Origin: Paremcibacter congregatus | GTDB lineage: Bacteria; Pseudomonadota; Alphaproteobacteria; Sphingomonadales; Emcibacteraceae | Direction: 5' to 3' | Length of the DNA stretch: 64,000 nucleotides | Assembly: GCF_006385135.1 (NCBI RefSeq) | Contig: NZ_CP041025.1 | Span: forward strand, 3,813,501 to 3,877,500 | Shown here: positions 33,670 through 43,402 of the stretch, piece by piece | Position numbering within the stretch: the first letter of the stretch is position 1 | How the letters are laid out: the number at the start of each line of letters is the position of its first letter | Notes under the pieces: generated by a model | Database searches by the model: none | What the model was told of the DNA's origin: nothing | What the model saw: the letters and a program-made list of their open reading frames with translations, nothing else | Translations under genes and position numbers: made by a program

Positions 33670-35124
33670 TTATTTTTGCCGCGGTAACAAAGCTGAAATC
33701 GACAGCGGTTTGACAGGCCACTGGGCATGATAAGGGCCGATATCCTCAATCGAACAGTCCCTTTCCCGACGGATTACCTCGGCGACGATACTGTAACACA
33801 GGCGCCCCTGACAGAGCCCCATACCCGTCCGGGTCATCAGTTTTACACCGTTGGCTTGCAACAGATGAGGATGATCGGTCAGGGCCTGCCGTAAAGCGCC
33901 ACAGGTGATATTCTCACAGCGGCACACCAGACTGTCCGGAGTCATCATATGGGTCAGCAGATCGTCGGGCAACCGGGAAAAAGCGTTGAGAAAACCGGCG
34001 AACGCATTCTGTCGGCTCAACTGGCGGCGGGGCCGGGCCGCGACGGCATCGGCGAGGCCGGTGGGAATAAGACCCAGGGCGCGGGCCATCCCCAGTCCGG
34101 CGATACGGCCTTCAAGACAACTGGCTTCGGCGCCCGCCATACCGGTGATTTCGCCAGCGACAAACAAACCCGGCTGACTGCTTTCCTGCCAGCTGTTCGC
34201 CGAGATCAGCCAGCCCCCCTGATCGGCGGACCAGACAGCATCGGCACCAGCCTGGCGGGCCAGTTCGGCGGAAACCTGAAAGCCGTAAGACATGCCCAGC
34301 CGATCAACAGTAAAGGTTCGGACGGGTCTTTCCGGCTTCGGCGCGCCGGTCGCAATCACGGGCTGCAATGTTACTTTTTCTAAACGGTCTACGCCCTCGG
34401 CCTGCTTTACCGCATGCTTAAACAGCAGGGGAACTCCAGCACGACGCAGACGAATCAAACTGCGGGCGGCCATGAGAAAAACACGCCAGTGGCTGAACAG
34501 GCTGGTCGAACGCAACAAGCGGCTGACCCCCGTCAGGGGAGACTGAGCGAAGGCGATGGCTTCGATCTGTCCACCGGCGTCCAGCACCTGTTCGGCGACG
34601 ACAAGCTGCAATGGATGCGTGCCGGCAAAAACAAACCGCGCGCCAACAAGAACCTGCTGGCTTTTGAGAAAGGTCTGGATGGCGCCCGCTCCCATCACGC
34701 CAGGCAGAGTGCTGCCCGGAAAGGCGAGAGGCCTCTCATAACATCCCGCCGCGACGAGAACCTTGCGGGCGCGCACAGTCTGTACGGCCCGGTCATCCTG
34801 ATACCAGACCTGATAGACATCGTCAGTTTGATCAGAATCCGGTGGGGTTATTCCGACCACACTGACCGACATTTTCCAGCATATTTCCGCATGATCTTCA
34901 AGACGCAACAGAAGGGCTTTCAGGTCTTTATACAGATCTCCTTTAAGCCAGTTTTTGACCGCAAAATCTTTTGGCGGCTGACGGGTGATTTGACCGCCGG
35001 GTCGGGGTTGTTCATCAAGAATGACAATCCGGGCGCCTGTGGAAATCAGATATTCTGCGGCGGAAAGTCCGGCGGGACCCGCCCCGATGATCGCCACGTC
35101 AAAAATTTCACGAGACAGGGTCAT
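33670..35124 (-). CDS. FAD-dependent oxidoreductase subunit with BFD-like 2Fe-2S domain
   Basis: This 484-residue flavoprotein has an N-terminal FAD loop (VAIIGAGPAGLSAAEYL), a second nucleotide-binding region, and a C-terminal BFD-like iron-sulfur domain (VCRCENITCG and MGLCQGRLC). It matches the large A subunit of the opine oxidase/HcnB/D-hydroxyproline dehydrogenase group. It is the last gene of a minus-strand operon and its start overlaps the small 2Fe-2S gene by four bases. Together with the next two genes it should form a membrane-linked dehydrogenase for an amino or imino acid. Confidence 0.9.
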   Translation of the reverse strand: MTLSREIFDVAIIGAGPAGLSAAEYLISTGARIVILDEQPRPGGQITRQPPKDFAVKNWLKGDLYKDLKALLLRLEDHAEICWKMSVSVVGITPPDSDQTDDVYQVWYQDDRAVQTVRARKVLVAAGCYERPLAFPGSTLPGVMGAGAIQTFLKSQQVLVGARFVFAGTHPLQLVVAEQVLDAGGQIEAIAFAQSPLTGVSRLLRSTSLFSHWRVFLMAARSLIRLRRAGVPLLFKHAVKQAEGVDRLEKVTLQPVIATGAPKPERPVRTFTVDRLGMSYGFQVSAELARQAGADAVWSADQGGWLISANSWQESSQPGLFVAGEITGMAGAEASCLEGRIAGLGMARALGLIPTGLADAVAARPRRQLSRQNAFAGFLNAFSRLPDDLLTHMMTPDSLVCRCENITCGALRQALTDHPHLLQANGVKLMTRTGMGLCQGRLCYSIVAEVIRRERDCSIEDIGPYHAQWPVKPLSISALLPRQK

Positions 35125-35438
35125 GAGCGCGTCTCCCGGGGGGCATTCAGGGTGGTGACCTGGAGACCTTCCCGCACCGGGGTCATGCAGGCGCGCACCA
35201 TGTGATCGCCTTCAGACTCATCGGGATACTTCAGGCTGACGAGGCAGTCAAAACAAACCCCCATATTACAAAAGGGCGCCCGCGGGAGTCCCTGCCTGTC
35301 CCATCGACACACAGGGTCATCGGACATCATGATCACCGTGGCGAGAGTTTCACCCTGATAAGCGGTGATGGTGCGCCCGTTGAGGCTCAGGCTGACGGGA
35401 AGTCCGCGGGTCACCTGATCCGTGAGACGTTTTGACAT
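35121..35438 (-). CDS. Small 2Fe-2S ferredoxin-like oxidase subunit
   Basis: A 105-residue protein with a plant-type ferredoxin-like site (CRWDRQGLPRAPFCNMGVC, FDC and a later RACMTPV). It matches the small subunit (HcnA/OoxC-like) that carries electrons between the two flavoprotein subunits. It lies between them, three bases after the stop of one and overlapping the start of the other, so the stoichiometric complex is probably coupled at translation. Confidence 0.88.
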   Translation of the reverse strand: MSKRLTDQVTRGLPVSLSLNGRTITAYQGETLATVIMMSDDPVCRWDRQGLPRAPFCNMGVCFDCLVSLKYPDESEGDHMVRACMTPVREGLQVTTLNAPRETRS

Positions 35439-35441
35439 GGG

Positions 35442-36635
35442 TTAGCCGCCTTTCATAAAACCGTTGATATGATCAAAACGCGCCGGGCTGAACAGAGAAA
35501 TATCATAGGCCGTGGCGCCGGTGGTCATCAGCTCTCCCATCAGGCGGGCATAGACGGGACCGAGGGTAAAGCCACTGCCGCCCGCCGCGATATAATATCC
35601 CGGAAAACCGGGCACTTCGCCAAGCAGGGGCAGTTGGTCCGCGGTGACGCCGACAACGCCGGTCCAGCAGCGCAGAAGATGATGCCGGGTCATGTCGGGC
35701 ACCAATTCCGCAGCAAGCGCCAGATTACGAATGACATTCTGTTCGATCAATGCCGGTCTTTTGTCAAAATCCGGCCGACCGTTGGTCATCTGGAAGCGTG
35801 ATGACCAGCCTCCCCCGATCAGGATATTACCGTCCGCGACCTGTTTCATGGACAGTTTTGCGCTGGCGCGCTGCACCAGATGCGGCAGGAATGCGGGCGC
35901 GGCTTCCGTCACATTCATCATCAGAGGAACGGGAAAGACCGGCAGATGAATATGCGCCAGCAACGCGCTTGAGGCTGCCCAGGCGCCGGCAGCATTAAGG
36001 ATTTTACCGGCACTGACCTGGGTGCGCCCCTCCTCAGTTTGCAGGGTGGCGATCCAGCGGTCCTTGTGATGGTACAAAGAAATAACCTCGCAGGATTTGC
36101 GGATGCTGGCCCCCTTTTTCCGGGCGGCGCGGGCGTAGGCAGGGGTAACGAGACGCGGATTGGCGTGACCTTCTCCGGGGAAGTAGGCGGCGGCGAGGAC
36201 TTTATTGCAGAGGTAAGGCGCCTTGCGTCTGGCGTCTTCCCCGGTCAGCAACTGGGTATCCATACCGTTTTTCTGCTCCAGCGCGTGCTTTTTCTTGAGC
36301 AGGGTGACTTCAGTGTCGGTCAGGGCCGCCATCAGCCCCCCCTTCATCACCACTTCCAGCGGCGCTTCCAGCTCCGTCTCGAGATCGGCCCACAGCTCTG
36401 CGGCCAGACGGTTAAGAGGAATAATGCGGGAGAATTGTTCAGCCAGCGCATCACCATGTTCAATCAGGCGATGCTCCAGTTGAAAATGCAGTGAACCGGC
36501 ATTCTGGCCAGAAGCCTGACGGTTGATATCGCCTTTTTCCGCCAGCAGGACAGAGGCGCCGCGTTGCGCCAGGTGATAGGCGCTGGCGCAACCAACAAGT
36601 CCCCCGCCAATAATCAAGACATCATATTGTTCCAT
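35442..36635 (-). CDS. DAO-family FAD oxidase subunit (glycine/D-amino-acid oxidase-like)
   Basis: A 397-residue protein with an N-terminal Rossmann FAD loop (VLIIGGGLVGCASAYHLAQRG) and the DAO-family C-terminal GYYIAAGGSGFTLGPVYARL. It matches the beta subunit (HcnC, OoxB, D-hydroxyproline dehydrogenase beta), which oxidises the amine to an imine. It is 50 bases downstream of the DapA-family gene in the same minus-strand operon. The substrate is inferred only from context: D-hydroxyproline or an opine-like compound. Confidence 0.9.
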   Translation of the reverse strand: MEQYDVLIIGGGLVGCASAYHLAQRGASVLLAEKGDINRQASGQNAGSLHFQLEHRLIEHGDALAEQFSRIIPLNRLAAELWADLETELEAPLEVVMKGGLMAALTDTEVTLLKKKHALEQKNGMDTQLLTGEDARRKAPYLCNKVLAAAYFPGEGHANPRLVTPAYARAARKKGASIRKSCEVISLYHHKDRWIATLQTEEGRTQVSAGKILNAAGAWAASSALLAHIHLPVFPVPLMMNVTEAAPAFLPHLVQRASAKLSMKQVADGNILIGGGWSSRFQMTNGRPDFDKRPALIEQNVIRNLALAAELVPDMTRHHLLRCWTGVVGVTADQLPLLGEVPGFPGYYIAAGGSGFTLGPVYARLMGELMTTGATAYDISLFSPARFDHINGFMKGG

Positions 36636-36685: not shown

Positions 36686-37603
36686 TTACAGGATTCCAAG
36701 GTCGGCAAGAGAGGCCCGGATGATCGCCTGCTCATTTTCTTTCAAAGGCAAAATCGGGCGGCGCGGATTGCCGCCGGGCAGTCTCTGAAGATTGAGTGCG
36801 GTTTTCATAATGGCCTGCGCCGAACCAAATTTAGCCATATAATTGACATCAAACCAATCATTCATGATCCGGCGATCCATAGCCCCGAAAGACAGGGCTT
36901 TATCGAGGTTACCCCGCCAGAGTTCATCAAAAAACGCTGGTTGATTGCGGCCCAGAACCGCACCCGCGCCCATCAGCCCGTCCGACTTCTTGTCCAGGAC
37001 AAGCCTGGCGCCAAAGTCATTCATTGGCGCGCCAAAGATGCGCAGGTCATCATGCAATGCCTCGGCCTCCAGAACAAACTTGCTGCTGTCTCCTGTGGAA
37101 TTTTTCAGGGCCACCACCTTATCCAGGCTGCTGATTTTCCGCAATAACGAAAGGTCCATATCAATCCCGGTGCCCGGGGGCCAATTGTAGATACAAATGG
37201 GCAAATTAACCGCCGCATTGATATCCTCATAAAAAGCATAAATTTCCCGTGCTGACGGTTTGGCATACGGGGGGGGCGTCACCAGAATGCCATCAAAACC
37301 ACAGGCCTGTGCCTGGGCCGCCAGTACAATCACTTCGCGGGCGGTAAACGCATTACATCCCGCCACCAGAGTGATTTTGCCCGACAAAATGTCCCCGGTC
37401 GTTTTGTAAAGCTGGAATTTTTCCTCCAGAGTCATGGAAAACCATTCGCCGGTGGTGCCGGCCACGACGATCCCGTGCATGCCTTCCTGATGAAGCCACT
37501 CCAGAAGACTGCCAAGCATGGGAATGTCCAGCTGATCCCGATCATTAAAGGGGGTTGTGATCGCAGGAATGTAACCGCGCCAGTCAATATCGTGCCTATT
37601 CAT
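36686..37603 (-). CDS. DapA-family aldolase/deaminase
   Basis: This 305-residue enzyme belongs to the dihydrodipicolinate synthase superfamily: VVAGTTGEWFSM, the catalytic Tyr in IYNWPPGTG, and the Schiff-base Lys in VVALKNSTGD. In hydroxyproline clusters a DapA-family deaminase converts pyrroline-4-hydroxy-2-carboxylate to a 2-oxoglutarate semialdehyde, and this position as first gene of the oxidase operon suggests a similar step. ATG 37603, nine bases after GGAG, is chosen over GTG 37618. No proline-racemase-type epimerase is visible, so the assignment is tentative. Confidence 0.85.
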   Translation of the reverse strand: MNRHDIDWRGYIPAITTPFNDRDQLDIPMLGSLLEWLHQEGMHGIVVAGTTGEWFSMTLEEKFQLYKTTGDILSGKITLVAGCNAFTAREVIVLAAQAQACGFDGILVTPPPYAKPSAREIYAFYEDINAAVNLPICIYNWPPGTGIDMDLSLLRKISSLDKVVALKNSTGDSSKFVLEAEALHDDLRIFGAPMNDFGARLVLDKKSDGLMGAGAVLGRNQPAFFDELWRGNLDKALSFGAMDRRIMNDWFDVNYMAKFGSAQAIMKTALNLQRLPGGNPRRPILPLKENEQAIIRASLADLGIL

Positions 37604-37697
37604 GCGGGAATTCTCCACGTAATTATTTTCTAATTCATCTCTTTCTCAATATTTACTGGTCTATGTTGATTTCGCCAATTACAATAAATAATAAATA

Positions 37698-37718
37698 ATG
37701 TTGCTTATAGCGCAACAT
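37698..37718 (+). promoter_or_regulatory. LysR-type operator ATGTTGC-N7-GCAACAT
   Basis: A perfect 7+7 inverted repeat with a seven-base spacer, placed between the divergent DapA-family and LysR genes. The same GTTGC-N7-GCAAC with the same spacer recurs at 38670-38686. Size and location match a LysR-type binding site controlling both divergent promoters. Confidence 0.7.
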
Positions 37719-37745
37719 TTAAGATGTTAACAAAAGCAGGACGCC

Positions 37746-38651
37746 ATGAATTTCAACCTTTCCCGATTACGATATCTCTATGAAGTGGCTCAATGTGGCT
37801 CCATGCGGGCGGCCAGTGAAAAAATGAATGTGGCGCCCTCTTCGGTCAGTCGACAGATCGCCATTCTGGAAGATGAATTGGGGGTTGAGGTTCTGGAACG
37901 CGGGCGCGGTAAGGCCAAATTGACCGAAGCGGGTGAAATGGCGGTGAAATATTATCGCGATGATCTGGGCCGAAAGGAAATTCTGGCCTCTCATTTGAAT
38001 GATATTCAGGGGCTGCGCCGGGGGTCCATTACCATAGCCATGGGGGAAGGCTTTGTTAGTGATTTGCTGTCAGAAGCCATGCAGGCCTTCATGGGAGAAT
38101 ATCCAGAGATCGAGATTGATGTCCGGGTTGCCGGCACAAATCAGGTGTTGTCACTGGTCGAAGAAGACGAAGCACATATCGGGATGGTTTTTGATTGCCC
38201 TTCCCTGCCGCGGATTACAGTTCAGCAGGCCTATAACCAGCCGTTAAAAGCTGTGATGGCCGCGTCTCATGCTCTGGCCGGACGAAAGAGTGTCAGCCTG
38301 GCTGATTTTATGTCCCTTAAATATGCCCTGCCCCAAAAAAATTTCCGGATACGGGAAGTTCTGGATGAGGCCGCCTATCAGGAAAAACTGGTGCTGGATC
38401 CTGTCCTGACGTCAAACTCCCTTCTTATATTGAAAAATATGGCCATGACACCGGACGGGGTTACCGTTTTGCCGGACATCGCCATACTTAAAGAACTGAA
38501 AGCCGGGCATCTGGTCTCCATCCCTGTCGAAAGTGCCAGCCTGTCCAACACGTCGGCCGATATCGTGACCCGCTTGGGACGCCTGTTGCCTGGGGCCGCA
38601 CGGGAATTTCTCAAATACCTCAGGGCACATTTTAATTATGAACTGCAATAA
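37746..38651 (+). CDS. LysR-family transcriptional regulator
   Basis: This 301-residue regulator has an N-terminal winged HTH (about residues 1-65: RLRYLYEVAQCGSMRAASEKM, VAPSSVSRQIAILEDELGV) and a LysR substrate-binding domain. AGGA lies just before the start. It is divergent from the oxidase/DapA operon and immediately upstream of the TonB receptor, and GTTGC-N7-GCAAC sites lie on both sides, so it probably activates both transcripts when the substrate is present. Confidence 0.93.
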   Translation: MNFNLSRLRYLYEVAQCGSMRAASEKMNVAPSSVSRQIAILEDELGVEVLERGRGKAKLTEAGEMAVKYYRDDLGRKEILASHLNDIQGLRRGSITIAMGEGFVSDLLSEAMQAFMGEYPEIEIDVRVAGTNQVLSLVEEDEAHIGMVFDCPSLPRITVQQAYNQPLKAVMAASHALAGRKSVSLADFMSLKYALPQKNFRIREVLDEAAYQEKLVLDPVLTSNSLLILKNMAMTPDGVTVLPDIAILKELKAGHLVSIPVESASLSNTSADIVTRLGRLLPGAAREFLKYLRAHFNYELQ

Positions 38652-38669
38652 GGACTTTCACTTTATTTC

Positions 38670-38686
38670 GTTGCACAAAAGGCAAC
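38670..38686 (+). promoter_or_regulatory. LysR-type operator GTTGC-N7-GCAAC, second copy
   Basis: A 5+5 inverted repeat with the same seven-base spacer as 37698-37718, between the LysR stop and the TonB-receptor start (about 108 bases before it). It links the receptor/symporter operon to the LysR protein. Confidence 0.65.
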
Positions 38687-38793
38687 ATAAATCATTCTTT
38701 ATTGTTATTGTAACAAAGAGCGAGCTCCTCCTAAGATATCCTTTCGCGACAAGACAGCAGTGACTGATCTTAAAATATTATGTGGAGGAAATG

Positions 38794-41019
38794 ATGCAAG
38801 CATCTAATATTCAGACCAAATTAAAGCACACAGTAATGGCCCTGACCGCAACGACAGCCTTGTGCTCTGTTGCCACGTCCGGGGTTGCACAGGAAGTTTC
38901 TGTATTTGACGAGATCGTCGTCACCGCCACCAAACGCGGGGGGCTGGGGCTTCAGGATGTGCCTTTTGCAGTACAGGCGGTCAGCGGGGATGCCCTGTCC
39001 AAACGAGGTGCGGTGGATTTTGATGATTTTTTCCGCCAAATTCCGGGAGTCGCTGTTTTTGACCAAGGTCCCGGCGACAAACGCTATATCATTCGCGGCG
39101 TAAATTCCACAGGCGCGGGAACTGTGGGTCTGTATATGGATGAAGTGATCATCACCGGCGAAAATGCCCAGGATGGCGGCGGACGCCAGCCGGATATCAA
39201 ATTGTTTGATATTGACCGGGTGGAAGTCCTTAAAGGACCGCAGGGCACGACTTTCGGGTCCAGTTCCCTGTCTGGCGCCATTCGCTATATCACCAAAAAA
39301 CCTGACCTGACAGAGGTTCAGGCCGCGGGCTCCGTCAGCCTGCGCAAGACCGAGGGGGCCTCCCTCGGCTGGAATATGGAAAGCGCGGTCAGCCTGCCGG
39401 TTGTGGAGAATAAACTGGCGGTGCGTGTCGCCGGTTATTATCTGGATGAAAAAGGCTACATCGACAATGTGTTGGCCGACAACGTCAATAACGAAAAAAC
39501 CTATGCCGGCCGCCTGACACTTCTGGCGGAACCCACAGACAAGCTGACCTTTTCCCTGATGGCCATGTATCAGGATATGAAAACGGATGGGCCCGGCTAT
39601 TTCAACCGGGTGGATTACACCGGTGCCCCGATTTCACAAAATGATTATTTTCAGGCCGATCTGACCCGCGCCCGTTTCCAGGACGAAACCCAGATTTATA
39701 ATGCGACGCTGGAATATAGTTTGGACCAAGGCAGCCTAACGGCAACAGCGTCACTGTTCAAGCGGGATACCCTGTTTGACCGGGATTCCTCTCTGGCGCT
39801 GGAAGCCTTTATCGGGCTTGACGCCGACGGGGCCGGACGCAGCATCATCACACAACCCAAATCCCGCGAATTGCAAAGCTATGAAGTGCGCTATGCTTCG
39901 GACTTTGAAGGGCCGTTTCAGGTGCTGGCCGGGGCTTTCCTACAGAAAGAGCGCCGGAACTTCAGAAGCGCCATTCTCGGCAGTGACGCACAAGGCAATA
40001 TCGCCCAGCCGGAAATCCCTTTCCTCGACCGGATTTCTCATACGGAAATTGACGAACTGGCCTTCTTTGGCGAGCTCAGCTATGCCATCACCGATCGCCT
40101 GACGGCGACAGGCGGTTTGCGCTACTATGATTTTGATCTGAGTGAAGTCTCGACCTCGGTCACAGGCTTTGGCGGGGGCGCCGGCAGTGGTCAGGGGCCT
40201 GAAATGACGTCCCGTGATGATGGACTGATTTTCAAAGGTAACCTGGCCTATGACGTCAGCGAAGACATTAATATTTATCTGCAGGTGGCGGAAGGGTTCC
40301 GATCCGGCGGGGTGAATGACCAGACAGCGGCGGCGATTGCCAATGTCACCATTCCTGAAGGCTATGGTTCTGATTCCGTGATCAACTATGAAGTCGGCTT
40401 CAAATCTTATCTTCTGGACGGCAAACTGAAAGCCAATCTCGCGGCCTATTGGATCGACTGGAGCGACATCCAGCTACAGGATCAGGCCTCTGACGGTCAA
40501 CTGGAATTCCCCTATCGCGGCAATGGCGGCGGTGCAACCATCAAGGGATTGGAAGTCGAACTTCTGGCGTTTCCGGTGGAGCGGCTGGAACTGGGCCTGA
40601 ATATGAATATTTCCCAGGCGGAACTGAATCAGGACAACCCGATTGCAACGTCAGGACAAAAGGGCGACGCCATTCCGTATATTCCGGAATTTACCCTGTC
40701 CGCCTCGGCGATGTATAGCTGGCTGGTGGGACCCAACGGGATGGAAGCCATCGTGGGCGCAGACGTCAATTATGTCGGGGGCCGTAATACAGAATTGCGC
40801 CCGGACAGCAGCCTGTTTATCAAGTTGGACGATTACGCCCTGGCCAATGCCCGCATCGGGGTGGAAACGGACCGTTGGTCAGCGACCCTCAATCTGCAGA
40901 ATATTTTCAATGATGATACCGTTACCGATGTGTTTCGGGTGATTTCCGGGGTATATCCGGAAGGATTTATCTTTAATCATCCCAGAACTGTCATGTTGAG
41001 CTTCAGCGTGAAAATGTAA
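38794..41019 (+). CDS. TonB-dependent outer-membrane receptor (LysR regulon)
   Basis: A 741-residue receptor with a signal peptide ending ATSGVAQ, a TonB box (FDEIVVTATKRG), a plug with the signature VEVLKGPQGTTFGSSSLSG, and a barrel ending MLSFSVKM. ATG 38794 is preferred, six bases after GGAGG; ATG 38791 and GTG 38782 are also in frame. It begins an operon with a sodium symporter, a VOC protein and RidA, and its ligand is presumably the amino/imino acid oxidised by the adjacent three-subunit enzyme. Confidence 0.92.
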   Translation: MQASNIQTKLKHTVMALTATTALCSVATSGVAQEVSVFDEIVVTATKRGGLGLQDVPFAVQAVSGDALSKRGAVDFDDFFRQIPGVAVFDQGPGDKRYIIRGVNSTGAGTVGLYMDEVIITGENAQDGGGRQPDIKLFDIDRVEVLKGPQGTTFGSSSLSGAIRYITKKPDLTEVQAAGSVSLRKTEGASLGWNMESAVSLPVVENKLAVRVAGYYLDEKGYIDNVLADNVNNEKTYAGRLTLLAEPTDKLTFSLMAMYQDMKTDGPGYFNRVDYTGAPISQNDYFQADLTRARFQDETQIYNATLEYSLDQGSLTATASLFKRDTLFDRDSSLALEAFIGLDADGAGRSIITQPKSRELQSYEVRYASDFEGPFQVLAGAFLQKERRNFRSAILGSDAQGNIAQPEIPFLDRISHTEIDELAFFGELSYAITDRLTATGGLRYYDFDLSEVSTSVTGFGGGAGSGQGPEMTSRDDGLIFKGNLAYDVSEDINIYLQVAEGFRSGGVNDQTAAAIANVTIPEGYGSDSVINYEVGFKSYLLDGKLKANLAAYWIDWSDIQLQDQASDGQLEFPYRGNGGGATIKGLEVELLAFPVERLELGLNMNISQAELNQDNPIATSGQKGDAIPYIPEFTLSASAMYSWLVGPNGMEAIVGADVNYVGGRNTELRPDSSLFIKLDDYALANARIGVETDRWSATLNLQNIFNDDTVTDVFRVISGVYPEGFIFNHPRTVMLSFSVKM

Positions 41020-41047: not shown

Positions 41048-42406
41048 ATGCAAAACCGTAAATGGACGTCCAATCTTTATTTTCTGGCTGCCGCCATCGG
41101 CAGCGCTGTTGGAATATCCAACATCTGGAAATTCACATACGTGGCCGGAGAGAATGGCGGCGGTGCTTTTATCCTCGTCTATATACTGGCCTTGTCCTGC
41201 ATCGCACTTCCTGCGCTGATTGCCGAATTCGTGATCGGCCGGCGCGGGGGCCAGGGCGTGGTGCGCAGCATGGACGTACTGGCACAACGGGAAAACATAT
41301 CCCCCAAATGGCGCTATTATGGCTGGTTGGCGGTGATTGCCGTCTTTATCGCGCTCAGTTTTTATTCGGTCGTCGCGGGCTGGACCATTGATTATTTCGT
41401 CTCTTCTCTATCCTCTGAAAATATTGTCCGTTCCGGCGCGGCGGCTACGGCCCGGCTCGATGCCATGCTTGCCGACCCTTTACGGATGATGCTGTATCAG
41501 GTGATCTTCATTGGTCTGACGGCGGCGACAGTGGCTTTCGGCATTAAGAACGGTCTGGAAAAAATGCTCGGCTGGATGACGCCGGGGCTTTTCATTATCC
41601 TGGCGGTTCTTTTGGCTTACGCCACCCTATACGGCAATATGGGGCAGGCGCTGCGCTTTTTATTCACGCCGGACTTCTCCACCCTCACCCCGACCATCAT
41701 CCTGATGGCCTTTGGCCAGGCGTTTTTCTCTCTTGGGGTCGGGGTCGGGGTCTTGATGACCATCGCCTCCTATATGGACCGGGAAACCCCGATGATCCGT
41801 TCCGCCATTATTGTGGCGGCGGCGGATGGCGGGGTCGCGTTACTGGCGGGGCTGGCGATTTTCCCGATCGTCTTCGCCCATGGCCTGTCGCCGGCGGAAG
41901 GCCCTGGACTGATTTTCGCCACCTTGCCCGTGGCGTTTGGCCAGATGCCGGGCGGCGCGATCGTCGGCCCCCTGTTCTTTCTTCTGCTGGCGGTTGCGGC
42001 GTTGACATCGGCGATCACCTTGCTGGAAACGGTGGTGGCCTGTCTTGAGGATCTGACTTCTCTGTCGCGGATAAAGCTGACGATTATGGCGGCGGTCGCA
42101 TTATGGGGACTGGGCCTGTTGACGGTCTTTTCCTATAACATCTGGGCCGACGTCAAGCCGTTGTCTTTCATCACGATCTTTGAGGATAAAACCATTTTTG
42201 GGCTGCTGGATTACCTGGTGTCAAATATTCTAATGCCATTGGGCGGGATTTGCGTTGCTGTTCTGGCCGGGTGGGGTCTGGGTAAAGCAGGCTTGCTGGA
42301 TGAATTGCAGGTTGCCGACAGCGTCATGTTCCGGATCTGGCTGTTTCTGATCCGGTTTGTTGTGCCCAGTGTCATCAGCGCCGTATTTCTAATAAATCTG
42401 ATGTGA
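41048..42406 (+). CDS. Sodium:neurotransmitter-symporter (NSS) family transporter
   Basis: A 452-residue inner-membrane transporter with the NSS signature at its start (NLYFLAAAIGSAVGISNIWK, then ENGGGAFILVY). The length is close to MhsT (11 segments) and LeuT. NSS proteins take up amino acids, betaines or similar zwitterions with sodium. It follows the TonB receptor by 28 bases and should carry the same compound across the inner membrane. Confidence 0.93.
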   Translation: MQNRKWTSNLYFLAAAIGSAVGISNIWKFTYVAGENGGGAFILVYILALSCIALPALIAEFVIGRRGGQGVVRSMDVLAQRENISPKWRYYGWLAVIAVFIALSFYSVVAGWTIDYFVSSLSSENIVRSGAAATARLDAMLADPLRMMLYQVIFIGLTAATVAFGIKNGLEKMLGWMTPGLFIILAVLLAYATLYGNMGQALRFLFTPDFSTLTPTIILMAFGQAFFSLGVGVGVLMTIASYMDRETPMIRSAIIVAAADGGVALLAGLAIFPIVFAHGLSPAEGPGLIFATLPVAFGQMPGGAIVGPLFFLLLAVAALTSAITLLETVVACLEDLTSLSRIKLTIMAAVALWGLGLLTVFSYNIWADVKPLSFITIFEDKTIFGLLDYLVSNILMPLGGICVAVLAGWGLGKAGLLDELQVADSVMFRIWLFLIRFVVPSVISAVFLINLM

Positions 42407-42434
42407 TGTGGAAGTTCCACAAAAGGAGGTAAAA

Positions 42435-42971
42435 ATGATACCCGGATTTTGTCATGTGGATCATGTATCCATTACAGTAGCCGATTTGAGCCAGGCGGTC
42501 GCCTTTTATCAGGAGGTGTTTGGGGCAGAGGTCGCCTATCGTATGGGCCCGTTTGATGCGGCCGAAATTCCGCCCCTCGACGATGGCCGGGACTGGACGG
42601 AAGCCCATGTCGATGTCAGGGGCGCCCGCCTGTCGTTATGTATGCTGAAACTGGCGTCCAACCTGATGATTGAATTGTTTGAATATGAGAAGCCGGTGGA
42701 TCAGCAGACAATGCCACCCCGCAACTGCGATATCGGCGGGCATCACCTGGCCTTCAAGGTGGATAATATCGAAACGGCCGTAGCCTATCTTGAAACGAAA
42801 GGTTGCACGGCCATGGCCGGCCCCATCATCATGGAAGAGGGCCCGACACGGGGCGCCCGGGCGCAATATCTCCGCGATCCTTTCGGCAATTACATGGAAT
42901 TGATGGAATATGACCTCCAGGATTATATGGCGGAAACCGGGGTAATCCCCTATGGCGTCACGCCGGTCTGA
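42435..42971 (+). CDS. VOC-family (methylmalonyl-CoA-epimerase/glyoxalase-like) protein
   Basis: A 178-residue VOC-superfamily protein (HVDHVSITVADLSQAVAFYQ, GGHHLAFKVDNIETA, RDPFGNYMELME) with metal-ligand candidates His and Glu in these segments. An ideal AAAGGAGGT lies seven bases before ATG 42435; an earlier in-frame start at 42408 lacks one. It belongs to the receptor/symporter operon and may be an epimerase or isomerase of the imported substrate. Confidence 0.85.
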   Translation: MIPGFCHVDHVSITVADLSQAVAFYQEVFGAEVAYRMGPFDAAEIPPLDDGRDWTEAHVDVRGARLSLCMLKLASNLMIELFEYEKPVDQQTMPPRNCDIGGHHLAFKVDNIETAVAYLETKGCTAMAGPIIMEEGPTRGARAQYLRDPFGNYMELMEYDLQDYMAETGVIPYGVTPV

Positions 42972-42994: not shown

Positions 42995-43402
42995 ATGAGC
43001 AGAGAGGTACTTAACCCCGAAGATATGTATGGCACCGTGGCATTTGGGTTTTCCCATGCGACAACCAGCACATCTGTCAAAACCATCCATTGCGCCGGGC
43101 AGGTGGCGTGGGACAAGGACTATAATGTGGTCGGAGGAGATGATCTGGCAAGCCAGTGTCGTCAGGTGTTCGATAATCTGAAACAGGTATTGGCCGCCGC
43201 CGGGGCCACCCCCGCCGATGTGGTCCGCATGCGGACCTATGTCGTGAATTACAGCCCGGATAAACTCGACCATATTGGTCCGGCCATTGCGGCATTTTAC
43301 GGCGACAGTTTGCCGGCCGCCAACACCCTTTTGGGGGTTGCCGCCCTGGCGATGCCAGAATTCCTGATCGAAGTAGAAGTCACCGCCCAGATCGACGCCT
43401 GA
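42995..43402 (+). CDS. RidA-family (YjgF/UK114) enamine/imine deaminase
   Basis: A 135-residue member of the RidA superfamily (TIHCAGQVAWDKDYNVV, VFDNLKQVLAAAGATPADVVRM, with the substrate Arg in RMRTYVVNY). RidA proteins hydrolyse reactive enamine/imine intermediates. The adjacent FAD oxidase complex would make an imine, so a dedicated RidA fits. It may be a clade paralogue rather than the general housekeeping RidA. Confidence 0.9.
   Translation: MSREVLNPEDMYGTVAFGFSHATTSTSVKTIHCAGQVAWDKDYNVVGGDDLASQCRQVFDNLKQVLAAAGATPADVVRMRTYVVNYSPDKLDHIGPAIAAFYGDSLPAANTLLGVAALAMPEFLIEVEVTAQIDA

Follow-up and report, generated by a model that had tools for sequence, protein, structure and literature searches.

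The 64,000-nt stretch of Paremcibacter congregatus DNA analysed here (the window) contains a gene for a LysR-type regulator of 301 aa (37746..38651, plus strand) that stands between two operons. Both LysR domains were found within 37746-38648 (PF00126, E 5e-19; PF03466, E 1.3e-37), and no NCBIfam cut-off was reached among the 25 matches listed of 51. The oxidase operon runs leftward on the minus strand. Its first gene encodes a DapA/DHDPS-family lyase or deaminase (36686..37603; PF00701, E 2.9e-43) and is followed, from 36635 down to 33670, by three tandem genes: an FAD-dependent DAO-family oxidoreductase (beta-type subunit; 35442..36635; PF01266), a predicted small subunit that is probably a 2Fe-2S protein (gamma-type; 35121..35438; an ORF named from its cysteines, judged by eye, and from the gene order given in an excerpt of PMC4575208), and an FAD/NAD(P) oxidoreductase with a BFD-like 2Fe-2S domain (alpha-type subunit; 33670..35124; PF07992 and PF04324). 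The uptake operon on the plus strand begins with a TonB-dependent receptor (38791..41019; PF00593, PF07715) and continues with an SNF-family sodium symporter (41048..42406; PF00209), a VOC/glyoxalase-family protein (42408..42971; PF00903) and a RidA-family protein (42995..43402; PF01042). Genes are closely spaced in both operons.

The window contains exactly two copies of the palindrome GTTGC-N7-GCAAC, at 37700-37716 (GTTGCTTATAGCGCAAC) and 38670-38686 (GTTGCACAAAAGGCAAC), which confirms an earlier sequence-only reading that had seen it in the divergent lysR/dapA region and between the lysR stop and the TonB receptor start. Site 1 is in the region that separates dapA (ATG at 37603, minus strand) from lysR (ATG at 37746, plus strand); the two genes are transcribed away from each other as a divergent LysR-type pair, here and in the close copies described below. 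Site 2 begins 18 nt past the end of lysR (stop at 38651), and 104 nt separate its own end from the first ATG (38791) in the TonB receptor ORF. The arms of site 1 are longer, with 8 bp (AATGTTGC/GCAACATT), forming an extended dyad AATGTTGC-N7-GCAACATT at 37697-37719, and those of site 2 measure 5 bp. As both boxes contain TTGC-N7-GCAA, both also fit T-N11-A, as the LysR motif is described in an excerpt of PMC5002191.

That reading had also held that identical arms and spacer make chance unlikely. Taken on the window alone, this was overstated. Two copies arose in none of 100 shuffles of the window (mean count 0.09), and the genome (4.19 Mb, one contig) holds 13 copies of GTTGC-N7-GCAAC, versus 5 for a reversed-pattern control. 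Ten of these 13 fall within predicted ORFs of 200 aa or more, and when 13 sites are placed at random a pair within 970 bp appears in about 4% of trials. The shorter core TTGC-N7-GCAA occurs in the window about as often as expected (2 observed, 1.9 expected) and is only mildly enriched genome-wide (79 versus 51 in the control). We therefore rejected genome-wide enrichment as proof of an operator, as the core is near background and its window count is as expected; the rarity of the palindrome alone is weak evidence. The 13 genomic copies, the frequency of close pairs and the core count in the window all speak for coincidence, that is, for a ten-letter palindrome that happens to flank lysR on both sides. 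The claim holds once conservation in related genomes is added, and it is because of this conservation that we place the operator above chance level.

LysR homologues at E<=1e-40 were found in 14 of the 296 genomes sampled from the order and in 3 of 32 genomes of the family; at E<=1e-50 there are 3 such genomes among 385 sampled from the class. The own genome is counted each time. Besides the window there are five close copies, 69-77% identical: L029, L030, L024, L031 and L032 (Pacificimonas pallii). With the window counted, TTGC-N7-GCAA stands on both sides of lysR in all six, one box centred 24-39 nt from the lysR start and the second 87-120 nt ahead of the first gene of the uptake operon. 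The Pacificimonas uptake operon begins with the symporter, not tonB, and the box is still in front of it. Full GTTGC/GCAAC arms are present at both places in four of the six copies; the box upstream of lysR in L031 and L032 lacks, on one side, the outer G-C pair. When both intergenic stretches of the six copies are aligned, TTGC and GCAA are identical and the spacer varies.

More widely, 14 of the 17 loci that contain both lysR and dapA have a box centred at most 60 nt upstream of the lysR start. The three loci without an exact box there include two with one-mismatch versions (L033, L036) and one with none (L034). Where a LysR homologue is present without dapA, such a box was found in 2 of 9 loci (L046 and L073), and one of these controls, L075, also has a one-mismatch box. 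Within the own genome, the window lysR is the only one of 22 LysR genes with a box upstream. No exact box was found at the VOC-RidA-symporter operons of L034 and L036, the uptake operon of L041 or the symporter-amidohydrolase pair of L045. The sequence-only reading had staked its claim on finding the motif beside orthologous regulators, and the two-sided boxes of the close copies and the upstream boxes of the lysR-dapA loci bear it out. Its suggestion that one regulator is common to the oxidase and uptake operons likewise gains support from relatives in which boxes precede the same targets in a different order.

Several loci deserve separate mention. L029 and L030 come from a single MAG (G092:C32 and G092:C19) with two lysR-dapA-DAO-tonB-SNF clusters, each truncated by a contig end; their LysR proteins are 77% and 73% identical to that of the window, both boxes are present in each, and the pair reflects either a duplication or a mixed bin. 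L024 (JAADIV010000121.1) is labelled a Deltaproteobacteria MAG, has a LysR that is 76% identical and the same cluster order, and is possibly a mis-binned contig. L046 and L073 (Novosphingobium plasmid) encode LysR homologues of 36-39% identity with a box 26-28 nt upstream and no dapA cluster in the stretch. In L071 (Psychrobacter), L072 (Burkholderia), L075 (Comamonadaceae) and L076 (Paraburkholderia), which are plasmids or large replicons with LysR proteins of 38-42% identity, tblastn gave no dapA-cluster gene within 8 kb and no exact box precedes lysR; two of these four records carry no annotation in the examined stretch. A membrane protein that adjoins lysR in several loci had been labelled SSS by eye, and is left unnamed here because it has no Pfam or NCBIfam match.

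The spacer length was examined in 20 loci that were picked by LysR homology and not by motif (295,246 bases, window counted), for k from 0 to 20. TTGC-Nk-GCAA occurs 44 times at k=7 and at most 10 times at any other spacer, and GTTGC-Nk-GCAAC 22 times at k=7 and at most twice elsewhere. With the arms permuted, the count at k=7 averages 5.3 and never exceeds 12 in these loci; single permuted arms reach up to 21 at spacers other than 7. The N7-only enrichment and the positions conserved in all six close copies refute coincidence, which, short of gross error in the comparative data, retains next to no probability.

The position of site 2, just past the lysR stop, would also suit an RNA hairpin or terminator, and the minus strand of site 1 was flagged as a terminator-like stem, with 8 bp and an AT-rich tail; the letters common to both sites would then be coincidental. 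However, none of five post-lysR stretches folds at z < -2 (-0.81, -1.86, -1.63, +0.26 and +2.10), and terminator-like matches number 2 versus 1.2 expected. Across the six aligned copies TTGC and GCAA are identical without co-variation, and the same box also lies upstream of other genes. On folding and letter conservation we rejected a hairpin or terminator, which we regard as very improbable.

We also found that the palindromes have a partner sequence. Among 37 sites that were selected and oriented manually, each toward the gene it was expected to control, 26 have ATTG exactly 21 nt past GCAA. The other 39 gaps tested have a mean of 0.54, and the highest of them, 9 at gap 15, arises because ATTG repeats inside the same second element. 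By this geometry the candidate operator is larger than the palindrome, and each box is half of a putative bipartite operator whose second element reads ATTGTWATTG. As ATTG lies 21 nt past GCAA, box 1 (37700-37716, minus strand) reads toward dapA and box 2 (38670-38686, plus strand) toward tonB. Operator 1 comprises TTGCGCTATAAGCAAC-N14-ATTGTAATTG from 37715 down to 37676, with its second element ATTGTAATTG (37676..37685, minus strand) 14 nt past GCAAC and the last ATTG 21 nt after GCAA. Operator 2 comprises TTGCACAAAAGGCAAC-N14-ATTGTTATTG at 38671-38710, with its second element ATTGTTATTG (38701..38710, plus strand) 14 nt past GCAAC and overlapping the putative -35 of the TonB receptor gene.

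Promoters were placed by eye. For dapA, a putative -10 TAAATA lies at 37650..37655 on the minus strand; it begins 53 nt away from the centre of the box and belongs to a stretch that is alike in five of the six close copies. For tonB, a putative promoter at 38708..38737 on the plus strand consists of -35 TTGTAA (38708-38713), 18 nt and -10 TAAGAT (38732-38737), the latter 54 nt away from the centre of its box; four of the six copies are alike there. As a consensus promoter scan lists neither of them, giving 37649/37622 for dapA instead, we infer these placements. They would put the box centres at about -66, with the second elements covering -35. LysR regulators usually have a primary site near -65 and a further one near -35 of the promoter that they control. 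Box 1 also reaches the putative start region of lysR, as expected for autorepression.

The boxes extend beyond the cluster. The genome contains one copy of GTTGC-N7-GCAAC outside ORFs besides the window pair, at 739,926-739,942, which is 3.1 Mb from the pair along the contig, or about 1.1 Mb the other way if the contig is circular. Its centre lies 108 nt ahead of an amidohydrolase gene (genome position 740,042). Among NCBIfam models the protein scores highest with a Xaa-Pro dipeptidase, at 282.6 bits and so short of the cut-off of 500. At this site ATTG follows at gap 20, not 21. An orthologue of this Xaa-Pro-dipeptidase-like gene (E<=1e-80) is present in 8 of the 296 genomes, all of them among the 14 with LysR at E<=1e-40 (hypergeometric 2e-12). 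Seven of the eight have a box centred 96-222 nt ahead of the gene, and in two of these seven, which carry tandem copies, it precedes the first copy. In the eighth (L035) the gene ends an SNF-VOC-RidA operon that has a box at its start. Boxes also stand 71-79 nt upstream of separate VOC-RidA pairs at six loci (L037, L038, L039, L042, L043 and L074), and DUF885 genes and a POT peptide symporter are preceded by boxes in the clusters of other genomes. Together these sites very probably mark a regulon with at least one unlinked member. Four genomic core sites with AT-rich spacers (L056-L059), taken from the matches listed up to about 2.93 Mb, yielded no further member in the own genome, as all lie in ORFs (684, 460, 316 and 219 aa). 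In L062 (G003:C2:173491-174756) the Xaa-Pro-dipeptidase-like orthologue contains one in-frame TAG.

A composite pattern, TTGC-N7-GCAAY-N20-ATTG, was scanned against the 296 genomes and matched in 64 of them: 13 of the 14 with LysR and 51 of the 282 without (Fisher 9e-9), with 33 matches in the former set and 65 in the latter. As the pattern was derived partly from genomes that were also scanned, the 13 of 14 is partly circular, and the newly matched places are therefore a fairer test. Six of 11 newly matched regions that we examined lie beside cluster-type genes. At one locus found in two related genomes (L102 and L103), two matches lie between a divergent Xaa-Pro-type amidohydrolase and a TonB receptor, followed in L102 by DUF885 genes. 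A match precedes a VOC gene, a DPP IV-like peptidase and RidA in L104, a small ORF and a TonB receptor in L106 (on the same contig as the G167 cluster), and a TonB receptor of 27% identity in L112 and L113, which come from two genomes of the same genus. TonB receptors account for several of the six positive regions, and since they are common genes, such positives alone are weak support. No cluster gene was found near the match in the other five regions (L105, L107, L110, L111 and L114), where it lies inside an ORF in four; one of the five holds the fourth composite match of the own genome (715,254), inside a 1085-aa ORF. In L102 (7836-7941) and L103 (7152-7257) the composite operators stand back to back, and the stretch contains no LysR of this family. 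Box 2 of the window also fits the pattern on the minus strand (38646-38685), toward the lysR 3' end, which is probably chance.

The boxes precede target genes and not lysR alone, so they could belong to another regulator of the same genes, with lysR merely one member of the regulon. Two incomplete genomes, G101 (69% complete) and G095 (77% complete), point the same way, as they have composite sites before cluster-type genes and no LysR at E<=1e-40. Nevertheless, T-N11-A and the 4-7-4 arms are LysR-box geometry, as excerpted from PMC5002191. The box tracks this LysR subfamily through the cluster loci (14 of 17), and at E<=1e-80 no peptidase orthologue was found among those of the 296 genomes that lack this LysR. 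We consider another regulator quite unlikely. As the same boxes precede the same enzyme and uptake genes in relatives, they are very probably sites of the LysR itself.

The arrangement has parallels among known LysR systems. Operators of the BenM/CatM type are 4-7-4 dyads with further sites nearer the promoter. OxyR operators have the same 15-bp 4-7-4 geometry as the window boxes (ATAG-N7-CTAT type), also with further sites nearer the promoter, as excerpted from PMC5002191. The arm letters and the regulator of the window differ from those of OxyR and BenM/CatM. E. coli IlvY O1, GTTGCAAAAATTGCAAT, reads TTGC-N7-GCAA and lies in the divergent ilvY-ilvC region, where IlvY represses itself and activates ilvC, according to the same excerpt (PMC5002191). 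Site 1 thus has the arms and spacer of IlvY O1 and, like it, stands between a LysR gene and a divergent target. Unlike in the IlvY system, the target is not ilvC, and a second copy of the box lies on the far side of lysR. The window LysR scores 59.3 bits against the IlvY equivalog NF008722 (cut-off 246). As this is far below the cut-off, the arms are common to IlvY O1 and the family membership is not. A literature search by title and start of abstract gave, among the matches listed, no publication on the regulon or the motif spellings.

The deaminase of the hydroxyproline route is a DapA-family protein. The order of the three putative subunit genes, beta (DAO), small gamma and alpha, is like that of D-hydroxyproline dehydrogenase and of opine dehydrogenase OdhB-C-A, and a deaminase belongs to the hydroxyproline route, as given in an excerpt of PMC4575208. 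We initially favoured hydroxyproline catabolism on the basis of the DapA homologue and the dehydrogenase subunits, and dropped it once a separate cluster of the hydroxyproline type was found elsewhere in the genome (about 2,924,000-2,930,000; G000:C1; L108:6989-12768). That cluster encodes a 4-hydroxyproline epimerase (595.9 bits, cut-off 376), a KGSA-type dehydrogenase, a DapA homologue and a D-amino-acid dehydrogenase, with no box among its genes. The two proline-racemase-family genes of the genome, at 2.93 and 3.17 Mb, are outside the window, whose cluster has no such epimerase, and no aldehyde dehydrogenase match (as for KGSA dehydrogenase) was obtained among nine window proteins scanned with Pfam. 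As the genome has its own hydroxyproline cluster, and the two DapA homologues are only 29% identical, we assign no single substrate to the window enzymes; our best guess is a peptide-derived amino or imino acid.

It is thus highly likely, in view of conserved box positions and neighbouring genes, that the two palindromes are primary boxes, within bipartite operators, of the LysR encoded between them, which would activate both operons and unlinked genes and regulate its own expression. Each operator would consist of TTGC-N7-GCAA followed by TTGTnATTG, with ATTG 21 nt on, over the putative -35 of the target. Operator 1 would serve the divergent dapA-dehydrogenase operon and, as it covers the region where lysR starts, probably represses lysR as well; operator 2 would serve the tonB-symporter-VOC-RidA operon. 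The inducer is probably an amino or imino acid derived from a peptide. In its presence, LysR would make contact with the second element and with RNA polymerase, and both operons would be activated. Activation would extend to unlinked members, for example the Xaa-Pro-dipeptidase-like gene at 740,042.

The mechanism would be an ordinary LysR arrangement, and the value of the finding lies in the regulon that it exposes, which outlines an unstudied nutrient-use pathway. The observation of two sites becomes a searchable regulon, in which one composite pattern finds scattered pathway genes, including an unlinked one in the genome. We tentatively suggest, as a possibility that falls somewhat short of probable, that this is an undescribed LysR regulon for the uptake and breakdown of one particular class of peptides or N-substituted amino acids, other than hydroxyproline. 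TonB receptors and DPP IV-like, DUF885 and Xaa-Pro-dipeptidase-like enzymes would feed the symporter, the three-subunit dehydrogenase, the DapA-family lyase and RidA. The regulon provides a common context for poorly known families: DUF885, this DapA-like branch and the VOC protein. If the suggestion is true, DUF885 proteins and this branch of DapA would gain a first physiological role.
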